Part shown: one piece after another, positions 25,761-47,265 of the stretch
Numbering within the stretch: the stretch's first letter is position 1
How the letters are laid out: every line of letters begins with the position of its first letter
From: Chthonomonadales bacterium
Lineage (GTDB): Bacteria > Armatimonadota > Chthonomonadetes > Chthonomonadales > CAJBBX01
Length of the DNA: 64,000 nucleotides
Direction: 5' to 3'
Assembly (NCBI GenBank): GCA_020849275.1
Contig: JADLGO010000057.1
Location: 1-64,000 of the forward strand
Made by a program: the position numbers and the translations under genes
The notes under the pieces: model-generated
Databases searched by the model: none
Told to the model about the DNA's origin: nothing
The model's input: only the letters and a program-made list of their open reading frames with translations

Positions 25761-27148
25761 TCCGCGTACTGCACGGCCTAGCCGATCACCAGGTGCTGCA
25801 GCGCGGCCAGAACGGCGCGGCCGAGGCCGCGCTGAACGGCACATGCGGCTCGGAGCGCGCCGGGACCGTCGAGGCGCGCGTGTGCGCGGCAGGCTATCCC
25901 ATCGCCGGCCACGACTGGCGGGCCATCGGCTTCGCCGCCGACGGGCGCTGGCACGGGCGCCTCGACGGCCTTCCGACGGGTGGTCCCTATCGCGTCGACC
26001 TGCGGCTCGCGGAGGATCCGGAGCACACCACGGCGGTGCGCGATCTGCTCGTCGGCGACGTGTGGGTGCTCGCGGGCCAGTCCAACATGGAAGGCGTCGG
26101 TGACCTGGTGGACGTCGAGCCTCCCAGCCCGTTCGTCCACAGCCTCGATATGACGGACACCTGGATGCTGGCGGAGGAGCCGCTGCACTGGCTGTGCGAC
26201 TCGCCGGACGCCGCGCACGCCGAGCAGAGCGCGCCCGCGCAGGCAGAGGCGCGGCGCGTGGCGCGCGAGAGGCGCACGAAGGGCGCGGGGCTCGGCCTCG
26301 CCTTCGCCGTGGAGATGCATCGCCTCACCGGTTCGCCGATCGGCCTGCTCCCGTGCGCGCACGGCGGCACGTCAATGGCCCAGTGGGACCCAGAACTGCG
26401 CGGCGAGGGCGGCGCATCGCTCTACGGCTCGCTGGTGCGGCGTGTGCGCCTGGCGGGCGGCCGCGTGCGGGGCGTGCTGTGGTACCAGGGAGAGTCCGAC
26501 GCGGACCCGCTCGCGGCGGTGCGCTATCGCGAGCGCATGGTGGAGTTCGTGGCCGGCCTGCGCGCCGACCTGGACGATGGGCAACTGCCCCTGGCGATGG
26601 CGCAGATCGGCCGCTTCGCCTGGCCCCCCGACGGCTCCTACCCGAGCCCCTGGAACACGATCCAGGAGGTGCAGCGCACCCTGGCGGACCAGGTGGCCGG
26701 CACCGTGATGGTCCCGACCGTCGATCTCGAGCTGGACGACGGGATCCACGTGGGAACGCAGGGCCTCAGACGCCTCGGCCGCCGCGTCGCCCGCGCCGCC
26801 TGCGGGGCGCTGCTCGGCGCGCCGGGCGGGGCCCTGCCCCTGCGGCTCGACGGGGCGGAGCGCGACGGCGCGAGCGTGCGGGTCCGGTTCGCGGGGGTAA
26901 ACGGGGCGCTGCGGCGCGATGCGCGGCCGGCCGGCTTCTCGCTGTGCGACCCCTCCGGCCACGACCTGGCGTTGATCTACAAGGTGACGCTGCCCGCCGG
27001 GTCGCCCGGCACGCTCGTACTGCACCTGAACGAGCCAGCGCCGCCCGGCACGCACCTCTGGTATGGACGCGGGAGCGACCCCTACTGCAACGTGACGGAC
27101 GACGCGGACATGGCGGCGCCGGTTTTCGGCCCCATCGTGCTGCCGTAG
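25757..27148 (+). CDS. SASA-family (sialate O-acetylesterase-like) SGNH hydrolase
   Basis: 463 residues, ATG 25757 overlapping the previous stop by ATGA. It carries the SASA-family pattern: an N-terminal beta-sandwich-like segment (D-H-Q-V-L-Q-R), then catalytic Ser109 in A-G-Q-S-N-M-E-G, A-H-G-G-T-S-M-A-Q-W-D, W-Y-Q-G-E-S-D-A, and the His in D-G-I-H-V-G. A C-terminal domain of about 110 residues follows (L-P-L-R-L-D-G-A ... L-H-L-N-E-P-A). These enzymes remove acyl groups, usually acetate, from sugars. No signal peptide is visible, so this and the coupled AP-superfamily partner probably act in the cytoplasm on an imported, multiply substituted sugar. The pair would strip two different substituents. 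Gene ends 7 bp before the convergent motB stop. Confidence 0.85.
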   Translation: MIRVLHGLADHQVLQRGQNGAAEAALNGTCGSERAGTVEARVCAAGYPIAGHDWRAIGFAADGRWHGRLDGLPTGGPYRVDLRLAEDPEHTTAVRDLLVGDVWVLAGQSNMEGVGDLVDVEPPSPFVHSLDMTDTWMLAEEPLHWLCDSPDAAHAEQSAPAQAEARRVARERRTKGAGLGLAFAVEMHRLTGSPIGLLPCAHGGTSMAQWDPELRGEGGASLYGSLVRRVRLAGGRVRGVLWYQGESDADPLAAVRYRERMVEFVAGLRADLDDGQLPLAMAQIGRFAWPPDGSYPSPWNTIQEVQRTLADQVAGTVMVPTVDLELDDGIHVGTQGLRRLGRRVARAACGALLGAPGGALPLRLDGAERDGASVRVRFAGVNGALRRDARPAGFSLCDPSGHDLALIYKVTLPAGSPGTLVLHLNEPAPPGTHLWYGRGSDPYCNVTDDADMAAPVFGPIVLP

Positions 27149-29249: not shown

Positions 29250-30128
29250 GTGACCGACGTCCAGGCGCTCATCCTCGGCTTCGTGCAAGGTTTCACCGAG
29301 TGGCTCCCGATCAGCAGCACCGCGCACCTGCGTCTGGTGCCCGCGCTCGCCGGCTGGCCGGACCCTGGCGCCGCCTTCACCGCCATCAGCCAGCTCGGCA
29401 CGCTGCTCGCCGCCCTGGTCTACTTCCGCACCGACCTGATCGGGATCGTCTCGCGCACGCCCGCCGGCGGCCCCGCGCCCGGCGACACGGCCGACCGCCG
29501 CCTCTTGCTGCCCATCCTGGTCGGCACGCTGCCGATCGTGGTGACCGGCGCGCTGCTGCGGCACGCGATCGAGCACCAATTCCGCTCGCTCTACGTGGTG
29601 ACCGGGGCCATGATGGGCTTCGCCGTGCTCCTGTGGGTCGCCGAGCGCGCGAGGACGCCGCGGCGATCGATCGACACGGTGACGGTGGCCGACGGGCTGG
29701 TGGTCGGCTTCGGCCAGGCGCTGGCGCTCCTTCCGGGCGCTTCGCGCTCCGGCACCACGATCACGGCCGCGCTCTTCGCCGGGCTGGAGCGCGCGGCCGC
29801 CGCGCGCTTCTCCTTCCTGCTCAGCCTGCCGGCCGTGTTCCTGGCCGGCGTCTACGAGCTCTACAAGGCACGCCACGCCGTCGCCGACTCGCACATGGGG
29901 CGGCCCCTCCTGCTGGCAACGGTGGTCGCGTTCCTCGTGGGGTGGGCCACCATCCACTGGCTGCTCCACTTCCTGCGCCGCCACCCGACCTTCGTGTTTG
30001 TCGTCTACCGCTGGCTGCTGGGCCTCGCCATCCTCGGGCTGCTGCTCTCGGGACGGATCACGGCGACCGACGCGGCGCACGAGCCCATCGCCCCACCGGC
30101 CGCCGTCCGCCCGGCCCGCACCCGGTGA
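29250..30128 (+). CDS. uppP: Undecaprenyl-diphosphatase
   Basis: 292 residues. Start GTG 29250, SD GAAGG (29240-29244) five nt before. It dephosphorylates undecaprenyl pyrophosphate to recycle the lipid carrier for peptidoglycan and surface polysaccharides; also called BacA. Signature regions: G-F-V-Q-G-F-T-E-W-L-P-I-S-S-T-A-H-L and P-G-A-S-R-S-G-T-T-I-T. Multiple TM segments. It precedes a TauE/SafE gene by 28 bp. It fits with the polysaccharide-export and glycosyltransferase genes in the window. Confidence 0.95.
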   Translation: MTDVQALILGFVQGFTEWLPISSTAHLRLVPALAGWPDPGAAFTAISQLGTLLAALVYFRTDLIGIVSRTPAGGPAPGDTADRRLLLPILVGTLPIVVTGALLRHAIEHQFRSLYVVTGAMMGFAVLLWVAERARTPRRSIDTVTVADGLVVGFGQALALLPGASRSGTTITAALFAGLERAAAARFSFLLSLPAVFLAGVYELYKARHAVADSHMGRPLLLATVVAFLVGWATIHWLLHFLRRHPTFVFVVYRWLLGLAILGLLLSGRITATDAAHEPIAPPAAVRPARTR

Positions 30129-30156
30129 CGCGCGCGCCGAGGGAGAGGTACCGAGC

Positions 30157-30927
30157 GTGAACCTGACCCCCGAGCAGTGGGCGATGGGCGCCGCGGCGGG
30201 CACGCTGATCGGCTTCTCCAAGACCGGGATGCCGGGCGTCGGCATCCTCGTGGTGCCGATGCTGGCACACGCCTTCGGCGGGCGCGCGTCCGTGGGGCTA
30301 ATGCTGCCGATGCTCATCTTCGGCGACGTGTTTGCGGTCGCCTGGTACCGCCACCACGCGCGGTGGGACCGGATAGGGCGTCTTCTGCCGTGGGTCGCCG
30401 TCGGCATGGGAGCCGGTGCCTGGCTGCTCTACGTACTCGGCGAGCAACACGCGCACAAGGACCAGATGAACGTCATCATCGGCTGGCTCGTGCTGGCGAT
30501 GCTGGGCGTTCACCTGGCCCGCCTGAGGTGGGGCGAGCAGCTCACACCGCACTCACGGGTCGGCGCGGCGGCGGTGGGGACCGGCGCGGGATTCACCACC
30601 ACGGCGTCGAACGCGGCGGGCCCGATCATGGCGCTCTACATGCAGAGCATGGGCTTCCGCAAGCAGGAGTTCATGGGGACGACGGCCTGGTACTTCCTGA
30701 TCGTGAACGTCGCCAAGCTGCCCGTCTTCTACCTGCTGAGTCTGGCTACACCCGACCGTCCACTGATCACGGGCGCCTCGCTGTTGGTCGACCTCGCTAT
30801 GCTGCCCGTCATCGTCGCGGGGGCGCTCACCGGCAAGTGGTTCCTGCCGCGCGTGCGGCAGAGCGCCTTCGACGGCCTGGTGCTCGTGCTCTCTGGCATC
30901 GCCGCGCTCCAGCTCGCCCTGGGATAG
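30157..30927 (+). CDS. TauE/SafE family anion exporter-like membrane protein
   Basis: 256 residues from GTG 30157 with GGGAGAGG at 30141-30148. About 7-8 TM helices with the family motif G-F-S-K-T-G-M-P-G-V-G-I near the N-terminus and A-G-F-T-T-T-A-S-N-A-A-G-P-I-M-A in the second half. The family exports sulfite or organosulfur anions or moves other small anions. Follows uppP by 28 bp. There are no sulfur-metabolism genes nearby, so the substrate is unknown. Confidence 0.9.
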   Translation: MNLTPEQWAMGAAAGTLIGFSKTGMPGVGILVVPMLAHAFGGRASVGLMLPMLIFGDVFAVAWYRHHARWDRIGRLLPWVAVGMGAGAWLLYVLGEQHAHKDQMNVIIGWLVLAMLGVHLARLRWGEQLTPHSRVGAAAVGTGAGFTTTASNAAGPIMALYMQSMGFRKQEFMGTTAWYFLIVNVAKLPVFYLLSLATPDRPLITGASLLVDLAMLPVIVAGALTGKWFLPRVRQSAFDGLVLVLSGIAALQLALG

Positions 30928-31049
30928 ACGGCGCCTGGCGTGGCTGCGGCGGGAGTCTCGCGCGGCCGCGACGAACCGGTGGATGGACGCACACGGCTGC
31001 CCCGCCGAACCTGCCGCGCTCGTGCGCCGCGCGCTTCCCGGAGAACCCC

Positions 31050-33980
31050 GTGCCCTACTGCCAGCGATGTGTGGCATCGTTCCTCTGCGCCCTCGCCCTC
31101 GTCGCCGCGCTCGTGGCCGGGGCAAGCGCGGCGACAAACGACCTGCCGGCGCCGCCATTCGCCGCGCTCATCGCCGCGCCGCCGGGCGCCTGGGCGGCCG
31201 AGCGTCGCGCCTGCGCGGACGGCAGGACCGCCCCGATGCTCTCCTCGCTGGCCACCGCCGAGACGCGCACGGGCGTGCTCCGGTCGCCAGCGTTCACCGC
31301 GCCGCCCCGGCTGGCGTTCTGGATCGCCGGACACAGCCGCCAGCGCGCCAACCGCGCCCAACTGGTTGACACTGCGAGCGGCGCGGTGCTGCGGTCCGAG
31401 GAGGTTCCCGGCGAGGACACCGCGATCGCGCGTGCGTGGGATCTGTCGGCGATCCGCGGGCGGCGCGTGCGTCTCGAGTTGGTCGACGGCGACGATGGGA
31501 CGGGGTGGGCCTGGCTGGCCTTCGGGCGCCTCGATCCGGCCGTCGCTCCGATGCCGCGCGGCGCCGACGTGCCGGACGGGTGGACCGAGACGCACGACGC
31601 GCCCGAGCCCGTGACCGTCAACGGCGTCCCGTTCTCCCGCCGCCCGCTGTGGGCTCCGACGCGCGAGGGCGCCCGCGCCGTGCTGCCAGTCGGCGCGCGA
31701 GCGCGGTGGCTGCTCCTCCTCGGCTGTGTGAACGCGCCGGACTCGGCCGGCCCCGACTGGGGGAGCGGCGACAGCTTCGTCAACCAGTTCATCGGCGATC
31801 GGCTCGGCGCCGTCGAGCTCCGCTACGCCTCGGGGACGGTCGATCGGGTGCCGCTTATCTGCGGCTACACGGTGTGGTGGCGCGGTCCGTTCCAGCGCTC
31901 GCCGGCACCGTTCACCACGGATCCGGCGGCGCGCGCACGCCTGGACGCCGCGCTCTGCGTGGCCAACGGGCTCCGGCCAGATGGCCCGGCGTACTGGCTC
32001 GGCATCGCCCTTCGCGGCGAAACCCTCGTATCCGTGACGCTGCAAGACGACGCCGCCAGGCGCGGCCACGTCGTGTTCGGGGGCGCGACGCTCACCGGCG
32101 TAGCGCCGTCCGCGTCCAACGGCAGGCTCACGCCCCTGCCGCGCGGCGCGCTCGACCCGGCGGCGGCCACGTGGCTCGTCGCGCATGGCGTGGACGCCAC
32201 CTCGCCTTACCCGGCTTCGCGACAGGCCGCAGTGCGGGCGCTCGCGCGCTCGGCCTATACCTACTCGGCCGACGTGACCACCGCCGGGCTGGCCGCGGCG
32301 CCGCCGCGCGCGACGGCGGCAACCTATCCCGGCCCGAGGCTGCGCTTCCTCGGGCCGCCGCTCGCCGAGCTGCTGACACGGGTGTACTACGAGAACGCGT
32401 CGGAGTTGTTGACGCGCGTGGACGATGCGACGGGCATGGTGCACGAGTCGCGTGCCGGAGCGGACAACTACGGCGGGTTCGGCGGTTGGACACCCGGGCT
32501 CGGCCCCTTCCACGCCGACTCGTACACGCGCATCCGCGCGCTCACGCTGCTCACGCAGGCCGGCTTTCGCGCGAAGGCCGAGAAGGCGGTGGACTACTAC
32601 GACGGCTGGATGCTCTACTTCCCGCGCGCCTACCCGAAGGTGCAACTCGGCGGCAGGCCCGTTCCCGCCCACGCACCGGTCATCGCGAACCGGCCGCACG
32701 TCTACTTCGACTCGCTGCGGGCAGCCGGCTGGCCGACGCGCTACACGACGCGCGACTTCGGCAACCCGGAGAACGACGGCCACGGCCTGCTGCTGCTGAC
32801 CCGGTGGCGCGCGTGGGTGAAGGCAGGCCGGCCGAGGGAGTGGGTGCGCAGCCGATGGGAGGCCATCGACGCCACCGCGGAGTATATCCCGTGGTGTTTC
32901 GAGCACCCGGAGCTCTCGTTCTCCGAGCACGGCCTGCTCTACAACGAGAGCGAGGGCGGCATGCAGAAGGCCAGCATCTTCTGCGACGAGCCATGCCGTC
33001 TCGGCCTGCTCGCCTGCGCCGAGATGGCGGGTGCCGTGGGCCGGCACGACCGCGCCCGGCGGTGGCGCGCCGTGGCCGCGCGCATGCGCCGGGCGATGGA
33101 GGGCTACTACCCGCGCGCCGACGCGCGCTGGGGCGATGTGTGGGACCCGGACAAGAGCGCCGGTTGGGCGCCCGGCCATGCCGTGCTGGCGCCGATCGTG
33201 ATCGGCGCCGACTACCTCGGGTATGACGCGGCGCGCCGCCTACCGGCCGGCTGGCTGGCGCGCACCGAGCGAACCTACCGCATGCAGATGGCGCGAAACC
33301 GGCCCGCATGGTGCGCTCCCACGGGCCTCGGCTACGCGCAGTGCTACGCCGCGCAAGCCGCCCTGCTGCTCGACCGCATGGCGGACGCGGAGCGCCTCGT
33401 CGGCTGGATGGCGCGGCTCTGCTTCGCGCCGCGCCTTGCCGACCCGTACCGCGTGCCGGAGGGCGCCACGGTGGCCGGCGACGGGTCGATGTGGAGGCGA
33501 TGGGGTGACCTGGGCAACCTCTACCAGCTCGCCGAGGTCCTCTACACCGTCCACGAGATGGCCGGGATCGACGACTTCTCCGGCCCGCGTCCGCTCTTCA
33601 TCCCGCGCGTGCCACCAGGCTGGCGGGGCCTGGAGGCGCTCGGATGGCCCGTTCGCGCACGGAGCGGCGGGGCGAGTGTGCTGGCCAGGGCCGACGTCAC
33701 GCTCCGGCGCGACACGCGCGGGCGCTCGTGCCGGCTTGACATCGACCTGTCGGCGCCGATCGACGGCTGTGACGCGCGCCTCGGCCCGTTCGCGCTCACC
33801 CGGACGCCGCATGTCGTCGCGGTGAACGGCCGGCCCGTCACCGCACACTGGACCGCCGAGGGCGACTCGCGCTGGGCGCGCGTGCGCCTGGGCCGCGGCA
33901 CGCGCTGGCGCATCGCCGCGACCACCCTTGACCGAGCCCCGCGCGCCTCCCGCGCCGGGCGAGCCCATGGAGGGCGATGA
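31050..33980 (+). CDS. Large secreted six-hairpin-glycosidase-like protein A
   Basis: 976 residues from GTG 31050 (SD CGGAG, 6-7 nt upstream). A signal peptide (residues 1-26) is followed by a beta-sandwich module (about 66-165: G-V-L-R-S-P-A-F ... W-D-L-S ... W-A-W-L-A-F-G), a second sandwich with W-L-L-L-L-G-C-V and a W-G-S-G-D-S-F-V loop, and an (alpha/alpha)6-type domain (about 430-880) with Y-G-G-F-G-G-W-T-P-G-L-G, N-E-S-E-G-G-M-Q-K and G-D-G-S-M-W-R-R-W-G-D-L. It ends in a beta domain. The helical-toroid domain resembles GH78/GH95/GH63-type enzymes, but no family can be named; acidic residues in the N-E-S-E motif are candidates for catalysis. It overlaps the next gene by ATGA. Confidence 0.7.
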   Translation: MPYCQRCVASFLCALALVAALVAGASAATNDLPAPPFAALIAAPPGAWAAERRACADGRTAPMLSSLATAETRTGVLRSPAFTAPPRLAFWIAGHSRQRANRAQLVDTASGAVLRSEEVPGEDTAIARAWDLSAIRGRRVRLELVDGDDGTGWAWLAFGRLDPAVAPMPRGADVPDGWTETHDAPEPVTVNGVPFSRRPLWAPTREGARAVLPVGARARWLLLLGCVNAPDSAGPDWGSGDSFVNQFIGDRLGAVELRYASGTVDRVPLICGYTVWWRGPFQRSPAPFTTDPAARARLDAALCVANGLRPDGPAYWLGIALRGETLVSVTLQDDAARRGHVVFGGATLTGVAPSASNGRLTPLPRGALDPAAATWLVAHGVDATSPYPASRQAAVRALARSAYTYSADVTTAGLAAAPPRATAATYPGPRLRFLGPPLAELLTRVYYENASELLTRVDDATGMVHESRAGADNYGGFGGWTPGLGPFHADSYTRIRALTLLTQAGFRAKAEKAVDYYDGWMLYFPRAYPKVQLGGRPVPAHAPVIANRPHVYFDSLRAAGWPTRYTTRDFGNPENDGHGLLLLTRWRAWVKAGRPREWVRSRWEAIDATAEYIPWCFEHPELSFSEHGLLYNESEGGMQKASIFCDEPCRLGLLACAEMAGAVGRHDRARRWRAVAARMRRAMEGYYPRADARWGDVWDPDKSAGWAPGHAVLAPIVIGADYLGYDAARRLPAGWLARTERTYRMQMARNRPAWCAPTGLGYAQCYAAQAALLLDRMADAERLVGWMARLCFAPRLADPYRVPEGATVAGDGSMWRRWGDLGNLYQLAEVLYTVHEMAGIDDFSGPRPLFIPRVPPGWRGLEALGWPVRARSGGASVLARADVTLRRDTRGRSCRLDIDLSAPIDGCDARLGPFALTRTPHVVAVNGRPVTAHWTAEGDSRWARVRLGRGTRWRIAATTLDRAPRASRAGRAHGGR

Positions 33981-36520
33981 GCATGATCCTCGCGATGGCG
34001 TCGCTTGTGCTGGCGCCCGCGCCCGGGTCCGTCGAGCTGCGCAGCGGGCACGTCCGCTGCGCCATCCGCGGCGCCGCGATCGAGCGGCTCTACCTGGACG
34101 GCGCGGGCAAGGGCCGCTTCGGCATGGAGTTCGCGCGCGACATTCGCCCCGAGGACTGGGAGGAGCGGCCCGACACGCGGGTCGCTCGCTCGGGCGGCAC
34201 GGCCACCGTCGGGCCGCTGCGCGTGTGGCTGCGCCGCCATATCAGCACGGACCGCGCGAGCCAGGGCACGTATCCGCACCTCCTGGAGACCGGTCAGCGG
34301 ATCGGACAGACGTTCCGGGTGCCCGAGAGCTGCATCTTCACCTCGGTGTCGGTCATGCTGCCGACATGGCACACGGCCACATCCGCCGCCACGCTGGCTC
34401 TCTATCGCGACGGCAAGAGGATCGCCTCGCGTCGCCTCGTGAACGTGGGCGACAATTCCTGGCAGGCGCTCGGGCTCGGCGCGCCGCAGGGTCCGGGCCG
34501 GTACATGGTGGAACTCTCCGACCCGAAGGGCCAGATCGGCTGGTGGAGCCGGGAGGCCGACGTCTATGCCGACGGCGAAGCCACCATCGAGGGCCAGCCC
34601 GCCGCCGGCGACCGGACGCTTCTGGTCGACGCGCGGCAGGATGTTGGCCCGGGCACGCTCACCTACCGTCTGTCCGGCGCGACGCTCTCCGTGACGGCCC
34701 GACAGCCTGCCCGCCAGCCCGCCGCGCCGAACGCGATGCCCTGGCGCTGGCGCGCGTCGTGGATGCGTGACGGCTACGACTGCACGCCGGCCGCGGGCGT
34801 GGTGTTCAGCCGCTTCTTCACCGATACGCAGCGCTATATGCCCGTGCAGCAGCTCAAGCGGCGTGAGACGGCCGGCCTGGCCTTCGACGGATGCCGCTGG
34901 ATCGAGATGGAAGGCAACCGGGACGCCGACCCGCGCGTGGAGGGCGAGGCCATGCACCTGCACTGGGAGCTGGCCGCGCGCGAGATGTCGCTGCGCCTGG
35001 ACACGGGGGTGCGAGCGGCGGGGGCCGTCCGCGAATGGCGCTGGACGCTGCGCGCGCTCCCGCGCCGCGACTCCGTGCCGGACAGCTTCCCACGCTTCAC
35101 GTGCTCAGACCTGGCGCTGGAGCGTGACCTGAACCGCTTCTGGTGGGAGCGCGCGTTCACCTATCCCGCGCCCGCCGGCCCGGGCGCCTGGCTCGAGTGG
35201 ATGCCGACGATGCGCTGCTGGTTCGCCGGCCCGCAGCGCGACGGCGAGATGCGCCAACTGCGCACATACCCGATGACGCAGGAGGGCTACGTGCACACTT
35301 GGGGCGACACGGTCGGCTGGCCGTTCCCGGGGCCGCCCTACGACACGCGGCACTTCGACGTCAACGCCCGCTTCATCCTGGGCGTCTGGCGCTCGTTTCG
35401 CTGGACCGGTGACCTCGGGTTCCTGCGCGGACAGGCCGGCCGGCTGCGGCGGGCCATGCGCTACCAGCTTGACACGCTCAAGGGCCGCGACGGCCTTATC
35501 GTGACCGCCAGTAAGGACGTCACCGGCCTGCACCGGGGCGTGGGCAACAACTATTGGGACATCCTGCCCTTCGGGCACCTTGACGCTTACGCGAACGCCG
35601 TCTTCTACGCCTCGCTCACCGCGATGGAGGAGATCGAGCGAGCGCTCGGCGAGCCTCCTTCGCGGGACTGGGCGGACCTGCGGCTGCGGTGCCATGCGGC
35701 CTACGACGCCACGTTCTGGGACGAGGGCACGGGCCGCTACATCGGCTGCGTCGACGTAGACGGCGGCCGGCACGACTACGGATTCACCTTCGTGAACCTG
35801 GAGGCGCTCCACTACGGCCTGGGCGACGCGGCAAAGGCCGCGCGCATCTACCGCTGGATGGAAGCCGGCCTCACTTCGTCGGGCAAGGCGGACACCTATG
35901 CCCGGTGGGTCTTCGCGCCGCGCGCAACCACGATCCACAACCCGATGTGGGGCTCGAACGCGCCCGCCGCCGAGCTCGCCTCGCCGAGGCCGCCCTGGTG
36001 GCACTTCGGGTGGCTCGGCACGCCCTACGGAGAGCAGTGCCAGGACGGCGGCGCCATCCTCTACACGTCGTACTTCGACCTGATGGACCGCGCGCGCTAC
36101 TTCGGCGCCGACAACGCGTGGAAGCGGTTCATGGCGATCATGGAGCGCTACCGCATGCCCGACCGCCTCTGCGGCGGCCCCCCGCTCTACCGCGGCGAGA
36201 CGCCGCAGCAAGAGAACCCCGGGACCGTCGGCGTCGACCTTCCGTTCCCGGAGAGCGGCCTGGTGCCGTGCTGGTTCCTCTACGGCGTGCTCGGCGTCGA
36301 GCCGACCCCGGCCGGCCTGCGCATTGCGCCGCGGCTGCCCAGCGCCCTCACGCGGGCCGGCGTGCGCGGCATCGACTGGCGCGGCATGCGGGTGACGGTG
36401 ACGGCGACGCGCGACTCCGTGCGGGTGGAGGGCCGCCGCCGCGACGGGCGCCCGTACCGGCGCACGCTGAGAATTCGCCCTGGGGGCGGCGCCCTGATCC
36501 CGGCCGCCGACGCCGGATGA
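33977..36520 (+). CDS. Six-hairpin-glycosidase-like protein B
   Basis: 847 residues, ATG 33977 overlapping gene A's stop (ATGA). A short hydrophobic N-terminus (M-S-M-I-L-A-M-A-S-L-V-L-A-P-A-P-G) may be a weak signal peptide. An N-terminal beta domain contains an insertion resembling a carbohydrate-binding sandwich (G-Q-T-F-R-V ... W-S-R-E-A-D-V-Y). The catalytic-like (alpha/alpha)6 region begins near 370: F-W-W-E-R-A-F-T-Y, G-D-T-V-G-W-P-F-P, D-V-N-A-R-F-I-L-G-V, N-N-Y-W-D-I-L-P-F-G-H-L-D-A-Y. It ends with the typical beta cap G-V-E-P-T-P-A-G-L-R-I-A-P-R-L-P. Likely an exo-acting glycosidase or phosphorylase; specificity unknown. Couples to the next gene by another ATGA. Confidence 0.72.
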   Translation: MSMILAMASLVLAPAPGSVELRSGHVRCAIRGAAIERLYLDGAGKGRFGMEFARDIRPEDWEERPDTRVARSGGTATVGPLRVWLRRHISTDRASQGTYPHLLETGQRIGQTFRVPESCIFTSVSVMLPTWHTATSAATLALYRDGKRIASRRLVNVGDNSWQALGLGAPQGPGRYMVELSDPKGQIGWWSREADVYADGEATIEGQPAAGDRTLLVDARQDVGPGTLTYRLSGATLSVTARQPARQPAAPNAMPWRWRASWMRDGYDCTPAAGVVFSRFFTDTQRYMPVQQLKRRETAGLAFDGCRWIEMEGNRDADPRVEGEAMHLHWELAAREMSLRLDTGVRAAGAVREWRWTLRALPRRDSVPDSFPRFTCSDLALERDLNRFWWERAFTYPAPAGPGAWLEWMPTMRCWFAGPQRDGEMRQLRTYPMTQEGYVHTWGDTVGWPFPGPPYDTRHFDVNARFILGVWRSFRWTGDLGFLRGQAGRLRRAMRYQLDTLKGRDGLIVTASKDVTGLHRGVGNNYWDILPFGHLDAYANAVFYASLTAMEEIERALGEPPSRDWADLRLRCHAAYDATFWDEGTGRYIGCVDVDGGRHDYGFTFVNLEALHYGLGDAAKAARIYRWMEAGLTSSGKADTYARWVFAPRATTIHNPMWGSNAPAAELASPRPPWWHFGWLGTPYGEQCQDGGAILYTSYFDLMDRARYFGADNAWKRFMAIMERYRMPDRLCGGPPLYRGETPQQENPGTVGVDLPFPESGLVPCWFLYGVLGVEPTPAGLRIAPRLPSALTRAGVRGIDWRGMRVTVTATRDSVRVEGRRRDGRPYRRTLRIRPGGGALIPAADAG

Positions 36521-39500
36521 CGCGGCGCCGCGATGCCGGCCGCCGCCATCTGGCCTTCGTCGGGGCGGCCCGCCGCATGAGCCACGCGCGCCGCGCCGCC
36601 GCCGCTGTCCTTGCGGTCGCGCTTGGCGGCTCCCCAGCCCGCGCCGCCGGGCCGTTCGAGCGCATGGCCGCGCTTCACGAGACCCTCGTCTCCGTCCACC
36701 AGGCCGCAGGCATCGCTGGCCTCTTCACCTACGACCACGACCCGGCGTTCTGGCTCGACGACCTGGCCCTCGGGAAGCTGCGCGTCGGGGTGCGAACGGG
36801 CGATACGGTCGCTTGGCTGGACGGCGCGCGCGACCTGAGCGCGCGCAACACGCCCGACGGCGCGGGCGTCGAGGCTGCGGGAAGCGTCGGTGGGACCCGC
36901 GTGCGCCTGCTCGCGCTGCCCGCGCCCCGCGGCCGCGACACGCTCCGCCGGGAGGGGCTGGCCCTCTTCCGGGTGACCTGCTCGCCGCCCGCCTGGCTCA
37001 CGCTGCGCTGGACGGGCCCCGGCCGTGTACGCATCCACGGCTTCCGCCCATCTCTCACCTACCGCGTTGACTACCTCACGAAGCCGGACTTGCTCCCCAC
37101 GCCGTCCGCCTCCGTGGAGACCACGCTCACCGGCGCGACAGCCCGCCTCCGACCACGCGGCCTGCCCCTGACCACCGCGCTGCGCCTGGCCGGCGCCGGG
37201 TTCCGGCCCTGGCGCGGCGTGTCTGGAGGCGTGGAGGCCGAGGCGGTCAGGCCGGTTGGCGGCGTCAGTCTGATGGCCGCCTTCGCGGAGGCCGCCCCGC
37301 GGGCCGCCGACCTGGCTCGGGCTGACGCAGGGCGCGCCGCGCGCGAGGTCCGCGCGCTCTATCGCCGGCTGACCGGCTCGGCGTGGACCCGCACGCCCTC
37401 GCCGGCGATCGATGGCGCGTTCCGCGCGGCGCTCGTGAACCTCGAGTATGCCTGGGTGCGGCCGTACGGCTGGATCGAGAGCCCGCACCACTGGGGCACC
37501 CTCTACTCCCAGCAACAGAACCTGGCCGCGGACTGGATCGGCCAGGCCCACCGCTCGCGTGAGATGCTCCTCACGCACGCCGCGCACCTGACCGCCAGCG
37601 GGCAGGTGCCTCAACTCGACCCATACGGCCGCGAACGCGTTGACTTCGGCGGCTGGAACCAGTTCTACGCGTGGGGGGTGAGGCACTACTGGCGAGCGAC
37701 CGGCGATCACGCGTTTGCCCGCCGGGTTCGCGACCCCCTGCGCCGCGTGGTCGAGCAGACGCTCGCGGCGCACGACCCGGACGGGAACGGCCTGCTGGGA
37801 TTCGGCCAGCAGATCCACAACCAGGAGGACTATATCACGACCCCCGAGGACGGCTCCTCGCCCACGATCGCCGGCATCGAGATGCTGCGCGCGCACGCGG
37901 AGGTCACGAGCGCACTGGGAGATCGCGCGCGCGCCGAGAGACTCGCGCGACGAGCGGCGCAGATGGCTAAGACCCTCCGCCGGGAGCTCTGGGACGCCGA
38001 GTTGGGCCGCTACCCCTACTATCGCGACGCCCTGGGTGTCACCCACCTCGATGGACAGTACCACGCGCTCACGTGGCCAGTGCAGTTCGGGCTTCTGGAT
38101 GACGTCGATGCCTACACCTCGATGCGCCATCTTGCCGACACCCTTACCGGACCGTCTGGCGAGGTGTACGTGAGCAACAACTTCCCATCCCACGTGATGG
38201 CAACGGTCGGGAGCCAGGCCGGCGGGCAGCAACAGCCTTGGGCGACGGTTGCGTGGGCCCGACTGGGCGATGCGGACCGCGCCGCCCGTCCACTCGAGTG
38301 GATTGCCCGGCTCGTGACGGGGCCGGCCAACGCCGGCGCGTGGCCCGAGGTGGCCGAGGAGTGGCCGAGCTACTTCACGCCGCCCGCGGGCGTCTTCGTC
38401 TGGGGCGTCGTTGAGGGGCTGTTCGGCCTGGAACTCGATCGGCCGGCAGGCACGCTCGACGTACGGCCGTGTCTGCCGGCCTCCTGGCCCCGCGCCACGC
38501 TTCACCTACCCGCGTTCGACGTGGACGTGCGCCATGGGCCGGCGCGCCTGCGCGTGGAGTGCCGCTCCGCGGACGCGCTGCGCATGCGCTTCCGCGTGCC
38601 GGTGCCGCCGGCCAGCCGTGTGAGCGCGATGCTCGGAGGCAGGCCGGTCGCGGCGCGCATCCGGGGAGGTGTGCGCGTGCTCTGGGTGTCGGTGAGCGCG
38701 CCCGCCGCGAGGCGGGTGGTGCTCGAGGTTCGCTGGAAGCCGCTCACCATCAAGGTCGCCGCTCCGAGGGCGGTGACGCCGGGATCGTCCTGGCGCGCAT
38801 CGGTAACCGGCGCGCGCGTCGTCGCCCTGCGCGATCCGTCCGGCCTGCTGACGCGCGTGCGGATGCTGCCGCGGGCCGTCGAGGGCCGACTTCGCGAGGG
38901 CGCGGGGCGCGGGGCGCTCACGTACGGTCCGATGGGCGCGCGCGTGCTGACGCGCCGCACGCTGTTCGTGGCGTGCGCAACGCCCTGCGGCGTCGTGCTG
39001 GAGCCGATCGACTTCGCTCTGCGGCCCGACGCCGTGGCGCGGCTCGCGCTGCGCGCGACGGCCGGCGGGACGAAGATCCTCCTGGACAGCGGGCGGGACG
39101 TCGCGGGCCAGTTAACCCGGTCGCAGGTCGCGGCGCTCCGGCCGGGCATCAACCGGCTGCGCCCTACCGCCGGGCCACTGGCAGGACGTGAGGTCGAGGT
39201 GGACGCCGCACCGGTCTTCGCGGCGTCGAAGGCCCTGCGCGCGCTTTCGCTGGCGCGCCTGCGACACGTCGCCCTGCCCGCTGCGGCGCTCGAAGACGAC
39301 GGCCGGTGGCGAGAGTGGCGCTGGTGGAGCGCTTACGGTCATCCGCCCTGGAGCGGGCTCGAGCCCCCGCTGCGGGGGCTCAGTTCGGCCGGCGACCTTG
39401 CTCCGCCGAACATGCCCGGCCTCACCTTCGCCAGTCCCGGCCGCAGGGTGGCCGTGGCCTCCCGACACCTCGACCGCCCGACGCTCACGGTGCCGCTCGC

Positions 39501-40338
39501 GGGCCGCGCCCGAACCGTCTACCTGCTCCTGCTCGGCCTGCTTGATAACGGCGACGTGTTCGCGCCAGTCGGGCGTGTCACGGTGCGGTGCGGCGATGGC
39601 ACGGCGTTCGGCCGGATGCTGCACTTCCCAGGCGATCTGGACTGGTGGGGCCCGAGGCGTGTCCTGGGGGACTTCGCCACGGTCGCCTCCGGTTGGACCG
39701 TGTCGCCGACCTGGGAGGCGCCCTCGTCCGTGATGAACGTCATCGCGGTCGACCTCGGCGCGGTGCGTGCAGTCGAGTCCGTTCTGGTCGAGACGATCGG
39801 ACGGTATCCCGCGCTGGGCGTGGTCGGTGTCACGCTCTCCAGTTCGCTGACACGCGACTCCGCCGCCGCGCTGCCTCCGGAGGCCCGCGCTCTGGCCGCG
39901 CTCGAGCCCATCTCGCTCTTCCGCTTCGACACGCCAGACGCGCCAGGCTGGGAGCGCACGGGCACGGCGTGGGGCATCACGGACTCACGCGGCGACCACT
40001 GGGGCCGGCGGGGTGCGAGCCGCTGGTTCGCCAACTCGATGGCGGGCGGCGAGAGCGCCACGGGCACGATGACGTCGCCGCCGTTCCGGGTGGAGGGCCG
40101 GCGCCTCTCGTTTCTGGCGAACGGCCACGGGCAGCGCAACCACTGGGTCCTGCTAGACGCGGTTACCGGTGCGCCGCTGCGTAGGGCGGCCGCCCCCGAG
40201 CGCACCGGGCCCTTCGTGCGCCTCGCGTGGGACCTGCGCGGTCTGAGCGGCCGGATGGTGCGATTCCGCGCCGTCGATGCGGAGACGGCGCCGGCTTACG
40301 CCTGGATCGGCTTCGACGACATCGTGATGGAGCCCTGA
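36517..40338 (+). CDS. Very large six-hairpin-glycosidase-like protein C
   Basis: 1273 residues, ATG 36517 overlapping gene B by ATGA; an internal ATG (36577) begins a cleaner signal peptide (M-S-H-A-R-R ... P-A-R-A-A), so the mature start is uncertain. A long N-terminal beta region (to about 300) leads to a helical toroid (about 300-640): W-G-T-L-Y-S-Q-Q-Q-N-L-A-A-D-W-I-G, Q-L-D-P-Y-G-R, G-N-G-L-L-G-F-G-Q-Q-I-H-N-Q-E-D, L-D-G-Q-Y-H-A-L-T-W-P. A beta cap follows (L-D-V-R-P-C-L-P-A-S-W-P), then about 500 residues of sandwich modules. The last (about 1130-1273: T-S-P-P-F-R-V ... W-D-L-R-G-L-S-G-R ... A-W-I-G-F-D-D-I) resembles the N-terminal module of protein A. Function probably polysaccharide debranching or binding; no precise family. 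Confidence 0.7.
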   Translation: MTRRRDAGRRHLAFVGAARRMSHARRAAAAVLAVALGGSPARAAGPFERMAALHETLVSVHQAAGIAGLFTYDHDPAFWLDDLALGKLRVGVRTGDTVAWLDGARDLSARNTPDGAGVEAAGSVGGTRVRLLALPAPRGRDTLRREGLALFRVTCSPPAWLTLRWTGPGRVRIHGFRPSLTYRVDYLTKPDLLPTPSASVETTLTGATARLRPRGLPLTTALRLAGAGFRPWRGVSGGVEAEAVRPVGGVSLMAAFAEAAPRAADLARADAGRAAREVRALYRRLTGSAWTRTPSPAIDGAFRAALVNLEYAWVRPYGWIESPHHWGTLYSQQQNLAADWIGQAHRSREMLLTHAAHLTASGQVPQLDPYGRERVDFGGWNQFYAWGVRHYWRATGDHAFARRVRDPLRRVVEQTLAAHDPDGNGLLGFGQQIHNQEDYITTPEDGSSPTIAGIEMLRAHAEVTSALGDRARAERLARRAAQMAKTLRRELWDAELGRYPYYRDALGVTHLDGQYHALTWPVQFGLLDDVDAYTSMRHLADTLTGPSGEVYVSNNFPSHVMATVGSQAGGQQQPWATVAWARLGDADRAARPLEWIARLVTGPANAGAWPEVAEEWPSYFTPPAGVFVWGVVEGLFGLELDRPAGTLDVRPCLPASWPRATLHLPAFDVDVRHGPARLRVECRSADALRMRFRVPVPPASRVSAMLGGRPVAARIRGGVRVLWVSVSAPAARRVVLEVRWKPLTIKVAAPRAVTPGSSWRASVTGARVVALRDPSGLLTRVRMLPRAVEGRLREGAGRGALTYGPMGARVLTRRTLFVACATPCGVVLEPIDFALRPDAVARLALRATAGGTKILLDSGRDVAGQLTRSQVAALRPGINRLRPTAGPLAGREVEVDAAPVFAASKALRALSLARLRHVALPAAALEDDGRWREWRWWSAYGHPPWSGLEPPLRGLSSAGDLAPPNMPGLTFASPGRRVAVASRHLDRPTLTVPLAGRARTVYLLLLGLLDNGDVFAPVGRVTVRCGDGTAFGRMLHFPGDLDWWGPRRVLGDFATVASGWTVSPTWEAPSSVMNVIAVDLGAVRAVESVLVETIGRYPALGVVGVTLSSSLTRDSAAALPPEARALAALEPISLFRFDTPDAPGWERTGTAWGITDSRGDHWGRRGASRWFANSMAGGESATGTMTSPPFRVEGRRLSFLANGHGQRNHWVLLDAVTGAPLRRAAAPERTGPFVRLAWDLRGLSGRMVRFRAVDAETAPAYAWIGFDDIVMEP

Positions 40339-40344
40339 GAACGC

Positions 40345-42342
40345 ATGCAGCCGACGTCCACGCGACAGGCGCGGCAAGGGCGATCGCCCACCGAGTCGGC
40401 GCCCGACCCGGGCCGCTGGTCGGCCGCGCGGGCCATCGCGGTCGGTCTGGCGCTGCTGCCGCTGAACGCCTTCTGGCTGGTCCACATGGAGATGGCGACC
40501 AACCAGGGCCGGGGCACCGGCGGCTCCTCCGGGCCGTTCCCCACCACGTTCTCGCTGTTCGCCAACGTCGTCTCCCTACTGGTTGCGCTCTCGGCGCTGA
40601 ACGCGCTCCTGCGCCGCTATGCGCCCCGGCGCGTGTTCCGCCAGCAGGAGATGCTGCTTATCTACGTGATGCTGGCGATCGGAACATGCCTGCCGAGCGT
40701 CGACTTCCTCGATGTGCTGTTCCCGATGCTCGGCCACCCGGCGCACTACGCCAACGCCTCCAACGGCTGGCAGGACCTGTTCGTGAAGTACCTTCCGTCG
40801 TGGTTCCACGTGACGGACCGGGAGGCCGTGCGCGGCTGGTATGAGGGCAACGCGGACCCGTACACGTGGGAGCGCCTGCGCGCGTGGGCGGTACCGCTGG
40901 CAACCTGGGGCGCGTTCATTCTGGTGATGCTCGGCACCATGCTCTGCATGAACGTGCTGCTTCGCCGACCCTGGACGCGCTCGGAGAAGCTGAGCTACCC
41001 GATCATACAGCTCCCGCTGGACATGACGGAGCCGGAGTCCGCCTTCTTCCGGCAGCGCCTGATGTGGGCCGGCTTCGCCGTGGCGGCCGGGATCAGCCTG
41101 CTGAACGGCGTGAGCGTGCTGGTGCCGAGCGTGCCGACGATCCCGGTCAAAATCATCGATGTCTCGCCCTACTTCACGAGCAAGCCGTGGAACGCGATCG
41201 GCTGGACGCCCATCTCGTTCTACCCTTTCGCGATCGGCCTCGGCTTCCTGCTCCCCGCTGACCTCCTCTTTTCGTGCTGGTTCTTCTACTTCGTGTGGAA
41301 GGCCGAGCGCGTTGCCAGCAGCGTGATCGGGTGGTCGGACTACAGCCCGCAGTACCCCTACGTGAACGAGCAGTGTTTCGGGGCCTATGTGGGCATCGCG
41401 CTGATCGCGCTGTGGGGCGTGCGCTCGCACCTGGGGCACGTCGTTCGCCAGGCGTGGCGCCGCGCGCCCCAGGAGGAGCCCGGGAGCCCCTTTCGCTACC
41501 GTTGGGCGCTCCTCGGCGTTGCCGGCGGACTGGCCTCGATGGTCGCCTTCTTCCACGCGGCGGGCCTATCGCTCTGGGCCTGCGTGGCGGCCTTCGCCAT
41601 CTACTTCGCCATCGCCATCGCGTGCACCCGGATGCGCGCCGAGCTCGGGCCGCCCGCCCACGACCTGCACAATGGGGGTCCCGACTACATCCTGACGGCC
41701 GCGCTCGGCACGCGATTCTTCAGCGCGCAGGAACTGAGCGTGCTGACCTACTTCTACTGGTTCAACCGGGCCTACCGAAGCATCTCGATGCCCGTGCAGC
41801 TCGAGGCGTTCAAGCTCGGCGAGCGCCGCGCGATACCCGCGCGCTCCATCGTGACCGCGATCGCCCTGGCCAGCATCGTCGGGCTGGCCTGCGGCTACTG
41901 GGCGCTGTACCACGTCGGCTACCGCCTTGGCACCGAGGCGCGAATGGCGCCGCACCTGAACGCCTTCGGCACGGAGGCCTTCGGCCGCCTGACAAGCTGG
42001 ATCCAGAGCCCGCGCTACACCGACATCCCGGCGATGCTCGCGATCGGCCTGGGCCTGGCCCTCACGCTGGCGCTGCACCTGCTGCGCATGCGATTCTCCG
42101 GCTGGCTGCTGCACCCGCTCGGCCTGGCCGTCTCCGGAAGCTACTCCATGAACACGATCTGGCTTCCGCTGCTGATCGCCTGGGCGTGCAAGGTGGCTCT
42201 GTTGCGCTACGGCGGCATGCGCAGCTACCGTCAGGCGCTCGGCTTCTTCATGGGCCTGGTGCTGGGCGACTACCTGCTGGGCTGCGCCTGGCCGATCGTG
42301 GGCTCCCTTCTCGGCGCGAATGCCTACAGCTTCCAGCAGTAG
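40345..42342 (+). CDS. DUF6785-type multispanning membrane protein
   Basis: 665 residues with about 12-14 TM segments, 6 bp after protein C and in the same operon. The pattern matches the DUF6784/DUF6785 proteins seen in Armatimonadota, Planctomycetes and Lentisphaerae, distantly reminiscent of oligopeptide (OPT) transporters. Visible landmarks: N-A-F-W-L-V-H-M-E at TM1, G-T-C-L-P-S-V-D-F-L-D-V, W-T-R-S-E-K-L-S-Y-P-I-I-Q-L-P, F-Y-P-F-A-I-G-L-G-F-L-L-P-A-D, and M-R-A-E-L-G-P-P-A-H-D. No partner permease or ATPase is nearby. Likely imports or exports a product of the upstream glycosidases; transport substrate and mechanism are inference. Confidence 0.75.
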   Translation: MQPTSTRQARQGRSPTESAPDPGRWSAARAIAVGLALLPLNAFWLVHMEMATNQGRGTGGSSGPFPTTFSLFANVVSLLVALSALNALLRRYAPRRVFRQQEMLLIYVMLAIGTCLPSVDFLDVLFPMLGHPAHYANASNGWQDLFVKYLPSWFHVTDREAVRGWYEGNADPYTWERLRAWAVPLATWGAFILVMLGTMLCMNVLLRRPWTRSEKLSYPIIQLPLDMTEPESAFFRQRLMWAGFAVAAGISLLNGVSVLVPSVPTIPVKIIDVSPYFTSKPWNAIGWTPISFYPFAIGLGFLLPADLLFSCWFFYFVWKAERVASSVIGWSDYSPQYPYVNEQCFGAYVGIALIALWGVRSHLGHVVRQAWRRAPQEEPGSPFRYRWALLGVAGGLASMVAFFHAAGLSLWACVAAFAIYFAIAIACTRMRAELGPPAHDLHNGGPDYILTAALGTRFFSAQELSVLTYFYWFNRAYRSISMPVQLEAFKLGERRAIPARSIVTAIALASIVGLACGYWALYHVGYRLGTEARMAPHLNAFGTEAFGRLTSWIQSPRYTDIPAMLAIGLGLALTLALHLLRMRFSGWLLHPLGLAVSGSYSMNTIWLPLLIAWACKVALLRYGGMRSYRQALGFFMGLVLGDYLLGCAWPIVGSLLGANAYSFQQ

Positions 42343-44715: not shown

Positions 44716-47265
44716 GTGGACTGGCACGCACGCTGGATCTGGGAGGACGGCGCGGCGCGGCCGCGTGACCGATACGTCTACTTCCGACGCGAGATGGACC
44801 TGCCTGCGGTTGGGCCAGGCGGCGCCCGGGCGCGCGTATGCGCCGACAGCCGCTACAAGCTATGGGTGAATGGCGCCTTCGCCTGCCACGGACCGGCCCG
44901 CGGCGACGCGCGCCACGTCTGTTACGACGAGCCCATCCTCGACGGCCTCCTTCGGCCTGGTCGCAACGCGGTGGCAGCTCTCGTCTCGTTCCCCGGCATC
45001 GGCACGTGCTCGGCGATGGTGGGCCGGCCGGGCTTCCTGTTCCAGTGCCGCATGGAGCACGAGGCAGGCGGGACCGTGATGGCCACGAACGCCGAGTGGC
45101 GGTGCCTGGCCGCGCCCTACGTGCCTGGCGCCGACCGCATGAGCATTCAGCTTCCGTTTCCCGAGGACTTCGACGCATGCGCCGAGCCCGAGGGTTGGAC
45201 GGAGCCTGGCTTCGACGACTCGCGCTGGCGGCCGGCGTTCGAGGTGAGCGACGCCGAGGGCGGCCTCTGGCAGGGCCTGCGCCCCCGCGACATTCCGCTG
45301 CCGGCCTACCGCGCGGGCCCGGCGGCGCGCCTCTTCTATGCGGCGCGCCGCATAGCGTGCGCCGACCGCGCCCGACCCGGCGAGACGCCAGCGGAGGCGA
45401 TGGCGCGGGCCACGCACCTCGCCCCCGCGAACGACGGGGCCGTCGCGCCAGCGCCAGATGGGACGCTCACCATCGCACCGACCCCGCCTGGCGTCGGCCT
45501 ATCGGTCGCTCTGGACTTCGGTCGCGAGCTGAGCGGCTTCGCCTGGTTGGAGGCCGACGCGGCGAGCGAGATGTGCGTCGAGGTGGGCTACAGCGAGCGC
45601 GTCGAGGACGACGGGACCGTGAACCCGGACCACTCTGGCGGCTGCGACGTGCACTACGCCGACCGCGTGAGGCTGCGGCCCGGCCCGCAGCGATGGGAAT
45701 CGTTCCACCCGCGCGCCCTCCGCTACATGCGTCTCGACTTCCGCGAAGTGCCGAAGCCGCTCGTCGTGCGCTGCGGCGTCCAGACATCTGGTTACCCGGT
45801 GGAACCGCGGGGCGCGTTCGAGTGCTCCGACGCCTTGCTCAACCGTATATGGGAAGTGGGGCGCGAGACGGCCGCGCTCTGCATGGACGACGCGTTCATG
45901 GACTGCCCGTGGCGCGAGCGCGGTCAGTGGCTCGCCGATGCGCGCGTACAGGCCCTCGTGGCGGCCTACGCCTTTGGCGACCACGCTCTGGCGCGCAGGG
46001 CGTGGATCCAGTTCGCCGAGAGCCAGCAGGCGCTCGATGCCTTCGACGGAGGCGCCGCGCCGCCGCCGCACCACGCGGAGCCCTGGATCAAGGGGCTCTA
46101 TCCAGCCGCGCCGCCGTTCGACACCGTGCTGCCGACCTTTGGCTGCATCTGGCTGAGCGCCGCCTGGGAGCACTTCCTTCTCACCGGCGACCAGGCGCTG
46201 CTCGGTGTGCTCTGGCCGGCGGTCGATCGGCTCGTGCGGCTTCTGGCGACGAAGGAGAGCCCCGACGGGCTCCTTCACAACCTGCCGGGATGGGTCTTCG
46301 TGGACTGGGCCCAACTCGACCCGCGCGGCGAGGCGACCCACGTCAACGCGTTCTACTACGCAGGTCTTCGGGCGGCGGCGCGCATCGCCCGGGCGGTCGG
46401 CCGGCGGGACCGCGGCGAGGATCTGGACCTGCGAGCGGCCGGCGTGCGCGACGCCGTCAACGACCTGCTCTGGAACGCGGCACGGGGCGTCTACGCGGAT
46501 GCGAGGGTCGACGGGGCGCTCTCCACCGTGGTGAGTGAGCAGGCGAACCTGCTGTGCGTGGCGACTGGCCTGGCTGAGCCGGAGCAGGCCACGCGCGTGC
46601 TCGAGGCGTTCGGCGGCGGCGCGGCCCCGGAGGCATCCGTCCGCATCGCCACGCCCTACTTCGCCTTCTACCGCATGCGCGCGCTCTATGCGGCGGGACG
46701 CGACGCCGAGGCCCTGGATGACACGCGCCGCGAATGGGGGCCAATGCTCGCGCGCGGCGCCACGGCCTTCTGGGAGCAGTACGAGCCGCGGTGGAGCCTC
46801 TGCCATGCGTGGAGCGCCGCGCCCACCTACGACCTGCCGGCCGAGGTCGCCGGCATCCGGCCGCTGCAGCCGGGGTTCGAGGAGTTCACGGTGCACCCGC
46901 GCCCGGCCGATCTCACCTGGATGCGCGCGGTGGTGCCGACGGTGCGAGGCGACATCCGCCTGGCCTGGCACCAGCGCACGGACCGACCATTCGTCGACGC
47001 GATGGGCGCGGCGGCGCCGCCGGCCCACACCGAGCCTGCCATCGCCCTCTATCTGACCGTGCCGCGCGGCGCGCGCGCCCATGTGGCGCTGCCGGTACAT
47101 GGCGTGACAGACCCCGTGATCGGCATCAACGGTGCCATCCTCTTTGCCTGCGGCGCGCGCGCCGATGCGCTCGGCGCGCGCCACCTGAGCGTGGAGGACG
47201 GACTGCTCCGGTTCGAGGCGCCGCCCGGTCGCTTCGATGTGGAGGTGCGGCGCGGCGGGCCGTGA
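44716..47265 (+). CDS. GH78-type alpha-L-rhamnosidase-like protein
   Basis: 849 residues; GTG 44716 with GAGGAGG (44703-44709) 6 nt upstream. Domain order follows bacterial alpha-L-rhamnosidases: N-terminal beta sandwich (W-H-A-R-W-I-W, S-R-Y-K-L-W-V-N-G, G-P-A-R-G-D), a middle sandwich (L-D-F-G-R-E-L-S-G-F), the (alpha/alpha)6 catalytic domain with D-C-P-W-R-E-R-G-Q-W-L-A-D-A near 397-411, and the late E-Q-Y ... H-A-W-S-A-A-P. The usual acidic residues are present in C-P-W-R-E-R-G-Q-W-L-A-D. No signal peptide, so it is probably cytoplasmic and acts on imported oligosaccharides. Exact sugar not proven. Upstream neighbour is the PiT gene, downstream the SLBB gene 47 bp later. Confidence 0.8.
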   Translation: MDWHARWIWEDGAARPRDRYVYFRREMDLPAVGPGGARARVCADSRYKLWVNGAFACHGPARGDARHVCYDEPILDGLLRPGRNAVAALVSFPGIGTCSAMVGRPGFLFQCRMEHEAGGTVMATNAEWRCLAAPYVPGADRMSIQLPFPEDFDACAEPEGWTEPGFDDSRWRPAFEVSDAEGGLWQGLRPRDIPLPAYRAGPAARLFYAARRIACADRARPGETPAEAMARATHLAPANDGAVAPAPDGTLTIAPTPPGVGLSVALDFGRELSGFAWLEADAASEMCVEVGYSERVEDDGTVNPDHSGGCDVHYADRVRLRPGPQRWESFHPRALRYMRLDFREVPKPLVVRCGVQTSGYPVEPRGAFECSDALLNRIWEVGRETAALCMDDAFMDCPWRERGQWLADARVQALVAAYAFGDHALARRAWIQFAESQQALDAFDGGAAPPPHHAEPWIKGLYPAAPPFDTVLPTFGCIWLSAAWEHFLLTGDQALLGVLWPAVDRLVRLLATKESPDGLLHNLPGWVFVDWAQLDPRGEATHVNAFYYAGLRAAARIARAVGRRDRGEDLDLRAAGVRDAVNDLLWNAARGVYADARVDGALSTVVSEQANLLCVATGLAEPEQATRVLEAFGGGAAPEASVRIATPYFAFYRMRALYAAGRDAEALDDTRREWGPMLARGATAFWEQYEPRWSLCHAWSAAPTYDLPAEVAGIRPLQPGFEEFTVHPRPADLTWMRAVVPTVRGDIRLAWHQRTDRPFVDAMGAAAPPAHTEPAIALYLTVPRGARAHVALPVHGVTDPVIGINGAILFACGARADALGARHLSVEDGLLRFEAPPGRFDVEVRRGGP

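Follow-up and report, generated by a model that had tools for sequence, protein, structure and literature searches.

The window, the whole stretch of 64,000 nucleotides from a Chthonomonadales bacterium that was analysed, contains four ORFs of 976, 847, 1273 and 665 amino acids on the + strand, designated A, B, C and T (Table 1). Each was chosen over every overlapping ORF by a codon-usage gene caller trained on the genome, which bears out the lengths, order and strand given in a first-pass annotation of the sequence. The start of the locus was wrongly placed there at 30940; A begins with a GTG at 31050 and a TauE-like permease gene upstream finishes at 30927. Two ATGA overlaps had also been described, the first of which stands: the A stop and the B ATG overlap at 33977-33980, and a ribosome-site-like GGAGGG lies immediately upstream of the B ATG. 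The second, at 36517, is doubtful as the start of C because no clear ribosome site was visible when one was looked for upstream, and because the N-terminus of C homologues is a short signal peptide ending in ...AQPRFERM, whose equivalent in C begins at M21 (36577). Judged from these homologues, M21 is probably the true start of C, which would then probably carry a signal peptide and be separated from B by a gap of ~56 bp, with no overlap. The multispanning protein T follows the C stop after 6 bp on the same strand, as had been reported. We infer that A-B-C-T are co-transcribed.

Table 1. Positions of the A-B-C-T genes and of neighbouring features in the window
Feature	Position	Strand	Evidence
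Sulfatase	24339..25760		
SASA acetylesterase	25757..27148		
UppP-like gene, then 28 bp, TauE-like permease	29250..30927	+	named by eye
A, exported protein 976 aa	31050..33980	+	gene caller; start GTG 31050
B, six-hairpin glycosidase-like 847 aa	33977..36520	+	gene caller; Pfam
C, six-hairpin glycosidase-like 1273 aa	36517..40338 (start probably M21 at 36577)	+	gene caller; homologue N-termini
T, DUF6785 + DUF6784 multispanning carrier 665 aa	40345..42342	+	gene caller; Pfam; predicted fold
GH78 alpha-L-rhamnosidase-like	44716..47265	+	PF17389 123 bits, PF17390, PF08531

On the + strand, A is immediately preceded by the UppP-like and TauE-like genes. Further upstream, a sulfatase gene overlaps that of a SASA acetylesterase, and this pair is separated from A by two opposite-strand flagellar-motor-like genes. 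Downstream, a GH78-like gene is found 2.4 kb beyond T, from which it is separated by an opposite-strand gene and by a PHO4-type transporter with its neighbour; it is possibly related to A-B-C-T.

Domain architecture of A, B and C

All three large proteins had originally been described as containing a six-hairpin (alpha/alpha)6 region, a claim that profile comparisons support for B and C and carry only weakly for A. B matches Pfam DUF608, the GH116 catalytic region, at 30.0 bits (cut-off 26.3), over positions 99-215 of the 361-position model alone, and the GH65 C-terminal domain at 27.2 bits, above the Pfam cut-off; each of these domains is matched by 19 of 20 members of the B family. The profile of this family aligns with a putative rhamnosidase in the PDB (3cih, E 3.2e-8), and within the family D528 (YWDILPFG) and E759 (FPESG) are invariant and E407 is nearly so; D528 and E407 are candidates for the acid/base Asp and the nucleophile Glu of GH116 catalysis. 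The N-terminus of B is short and hydrophobic, ambiguous as a signal peptide, and the protein is presumed to be exported. C itself falls below the Pfam cut-offs for both Rhamnosid6H (19.0 against 24.5 bits) and MGH1-like (15.3 against 27 bits), its homologues matching these models better (up to 2e-8 and 6e-10, respectively). The C family profile matches RhaB (E 3.4e-6) and ExoMA2 (PDB 8ic6, E 4.8e-9), a GH116 exo-beta-D-arabinofuranosidase in which a beta-sandwich precedes an (alpha/alpha)6 barrel (PMC10509167). B and C also align with one another (97.6% over 360 columns by hhalign), and besides its six-hairpin region C possesses a large C-terminal beta region.

Protein A consists of a signal peptide, a ~120-aa beta-module (residues ~48-163), a middle region, a helix-rich region (~400-850) and a beta-rich C-terminus. 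The beta-module is common to the C-terminus of C (~1145-1271; 99% by hhalign). No Pfam family matched A at E values up to 1 and a PDB sequence search with the single protein found nothing, while the A family profile reached 8ic6 at E 0.0036 and some A homologues weakly match Rhamnosid6H (GH78) or GH94. These matches only suggest that the helix-rich region is probably of the six-hairpin type. The AlphaFold2 model of A settles no fold, as its alignment had three usable rows and its pLDDT is 43; a Foldseek search with it gave no match under 1e-3, and the resulting list was not used. A is, by its sequence, an exported protein family without a Pfam assignment. Neither A nor C relatives were found in a viral sequence collection. 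The earlier remark that none of the three proteins fits one GH family cleanly is confirmed by the lack of a Pfam match for A, the sub-cut-off scores of C and the partial GH116 match of B.

Some of these matches raise the question of whether the trio consists entirely of hydrolases, or whether at least one member uses the six-hairpin fold as a phosphorylase or as an inactive binding protein. Weak matches to GH94 or chitobiose phosphorylase are seen for the A and B families, and the C family profile also matches a putative phosphorylase (4zle). Nevertheless, invariant carboxylates are present in all three families, and A has a signal peptide, whereas phosphorolysis is usually cytoplasmic; we consider this explanation very unlikely.

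The carrier T and the DUF6785 family

T matches DUF6785 (PF20581) at 552.1 bits against a cut-off of 25, across the entire model (2-498 of 498), and DUF6784 (PF20580) at 101.9 against 26.4 bits, so that its first assignment to DUF6785 holds. Its description as an 'OPT-like' carrier is supported by the predicted fold. The AlphaFold2 model of T (pLDDT 89.2, pTM 0.90; 61 family sequences) has a single PDB match under 1e-3 by Foldseek, namely HvYS1 (7wst_A; E 2.8e-8, TM 0.60/0.66), which extends over the full length at 12% identity. A PDB sequence search with the single protein T found nothing, and no Pfam OPT (PF03169) match was obtained at E values up to 1 for T or for any of the 27 members of sequence set A4; a different member of DUF6785 falls just short of the OPT cut-off, with 25.7 against 25.8 bits. 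The link between T and OPT rests on the predicted fold and this borderline family member, since the T family profile gave no alignment with one classical OPT protein. HvYS1, barley Yellow stripe 1, is a proton-coupled symporter of an Fe(III)-phytosiderophore, Fe(III)-deoxymugineic acid, and not of sugar (PMC9691689).

Of the 291 genomes of the phylum, 204 carry DUF6785 genes, and the named relatives belong to Armatimonadetes (mostly Chthonomonadales), Candidatus Poribacteria and a few other lineages; a literature search returned no paper naming DUF6785. The 4.8-Mb genome studied here has 24 DUF6785 copies, 23 intact and one broken, the latter containing internal stops (C65:32292-33776); this is an unusual expansion for a single genome of that size, and a search of the genome for Pfam OPT gave no match. 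In this genome, LacI regulators are enriched near DUF6785 genes (5/15 within 5 kb against an expected 0.85, P 0.001), and Pfam neighbour tallies show a weaker enrichment of pilin and Gfo/Idh/MocA genes. At six loci a DUF6785 gene is grouped with a LacI or GntR regulator and a DUF1559 prepilin-like gene, frequently together with a gene for a small transmembrane protein; this recurrent arrangement suggests regulated uptake modules. The genome also encodes a second C-like protein of 1310 aa (L015:675-4607). Its gene and a DUF6785 gene other than T are 4.3 kb apart, and a subtilase with Ig-like domains is encoded in between. The earlier observation that SusC/SusD are absent nearby is correct, and no TonB plug domain (PF07715) was found in the whole genome, which makes TonB-type uptake unlikely.

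Linkage of the trio to the carrier and proposed role

Among the 291 phylum genomes searched, 19 have A and 16 have C, and the complete A-B-C-T quartet was found in no other genome of the set. The first-pass annotation had held that a neighbourhood unique to the strain would count against its reading, and this is partly the case, as the quartet was found in this genome alone. In most genomes A, B and C lie apart from one another, and most of their homologues have no DUF6785 gene nearby. Given this separation of A, B and C, and the doubt over one of the two overlaps, the multi-enzyme assembly of fixed stoichiometry that had been deduced from the ATGA overlaps is rejected.

The co-occurrence of the carrier with the trio across Armatimonadota, proposed at the outset as a check, holds in part: the quartet was found only in this genome, while A-C together with a carrier recur in a second family and A is linked to carriers above chance. 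Three genomes belonging to family f16 carry A next to C, and two of these have a DUF6785 gene (T) and a DUF1559-type pilin in the same cluster, in the orders GxGYxYP - A - C - GH42 - pilin - GH29 - T (L127) and GH42 - pilin - GH29 - T - flavodoxin - A - C (L126). In the third (L124), GH51 lies upstream of A-C, and no T is present on the 14.5-kb contig. Elsewhere, a DUF6785 gene is located 393 bp from A, with GH29 just past A (G217), 3.3 kb from A (G253), and 2.8 kb further on from an A gene cut by a contig break (G097). With one locus counted per genus, 4 of the 12 other genera have DUF6785 no more than 10 kb from A, against 0.68 expected under random placement (P 0.003), a count that includes G097, hand-joined across its contig break; with 24 DUF6785 loci to a genome, chance alone should produce some such linkage. 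In two f16 genomes B lies just after GH29, at distances of 14 and 31 bp, and at two further loci it is near DUF6785. In Armatimonadetes fen_943, an A homologue near DUF6785 (L178:15300-18662) is split into two ORFs and has an unread base in its N-terminal part.

The contexts of T's own relatives are mixed. The three closest (69-70% identity) are found in other, varied contexts without the trio, whereas relatives at 63% identity close GH29-GH95-GH32-T gene runs in Bacterium HR16, where the families were checked with Pfam, and in Chthonomonadia Ch118, where they were assigned by similarity; the glycosidase runs stop ~10 bp before the T relatives. These observations bear on an alternative in which A, B and C make up a unit that is secreted and degrades glycan, while T, one of two dozen DUF6785 carriers, follows it by chance and imports something else, of the kind carried by known OPT proteins, for example peptides or metal chelates. 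The varied contexts of the nearest relatives favour it, as do the metal-chelate substrate of YS1 (PMC9691689) and the conserved neighbourhood, with an apparent cation ATPase (identified by eye), of DUF6785 in Poribacteria. The 6-bp, same-strand C-T spacing, the glycosidase runs that stop just before close T relatives, the association of A with carriers above chance and the LacI enrichment near DUF6785 genes argue against it. With so many DUF6785 genes in the genome and a quartet that is unique, this alternative stays serious, although we judge it unlikely.

A further scenario is that A, B and C trim surface glycan or exopolysaccharide belonging to the cell itself, with T recovering the fragments for reuse, and that nutrition plays no part. 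The patchy distribution of A and C is what strain-specific surface glycans would produce, and the UppP-like and TauE-like genes directly upstream would suit such a role. However, GH29 is repeatedly linked to A, B and T, and GH42 or GH51 to A-C, all of them families that typically break down foreign glycans, and GH78, sulfatase and SASA esterase genes lie within the same window, so that envelope turnover appears distinctly improbable.

The explanation preferred here, to which we give about an even chance of being correct, is that the genes make up a small module for trimming a glycan, perhaps a fucosylated one, and importing the products through a DUF6785 OPT-like carrier. Outside the inner membrane, exported A, B and C would cut back a complex heteroglycan, probably bearing L-fucose, to yield monosaccharides or short oligosaccharides; T, with its OPT/YSL-like predicted fold, would then import a released product, probably by proton symport. 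We infer the catalytic activity of A, B and C, the glycan substrate, the proton coupling and the transport of sugar by T. Fucosylated glycan is the likeliest substrate class, given that genes of GH29, the alpha-L-fucosidase family, turn up repeatedly next to A, B and T in separate lineages. The glycan-processing and transport system first envisaged for this locus is retained in part, on the strength of the predicted fold of T, the recurrence of A-C with a carrier, the A-carrier linkage and the T relatives in glycosidase runs, but without its assembly component. More broadly, and only tentatively, as we rate it somewhat below an even chance, the DUF6785 carriers may together form a class of OPT-fold importers for oligosaccharides that spans the phylum and has gone unrecognised, used by Armatimonadota with exported glycosidases that include new six-hairpin families such as A, here in a genome lacking TonB plug domains. 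Armatimonadota are described as specialists in polysaccharide degradation whose genomes each have 51-349 annotated GHs (PMC12485897). DUF6785 carriers, in dozens of copies, may be the phylum's route for pieces of complex sugars, and the fold assignment, for a family found so widely across its genomes, provides a concrete carrier to test for glycan uptake.

Comparison with known systems

Among the closest parallels to this locus are the GH29-GH95-GH32-DUF6785 runs of HR16 and Ch118, which likewise consist of glycosidases (GH95 is also (alpha/alpha)6) with a relative of T close behind; the enzymes there belong to named GH families, and A, B and C are absent. The GH116 enzymes, including ExoMA2, and the GH78 rhamnosidases share the six-hairpin region, as judged from the B and C family profiles, but the matches of B and C themselves are short and weak, those of C lying below the Pfam cut-offs, A has none, and A and C possess the additional beta-module in common. 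T resembles the OPT/YSL transporter HvYS1 in its predicted whole-chain fold, yet differs in its low identity, in the lack of a Pfam OPT match and in a context of glycosidases rather than of metal or peptide uptake. Finally, the polysaccharide utilization loci (PULs) of Bacteroidota also cluster glycosidases with a membrane carrier, in their case SusC/D, whereas the present genome has no TonB plug domain and the carrier is an OPT-like multispanning protein.
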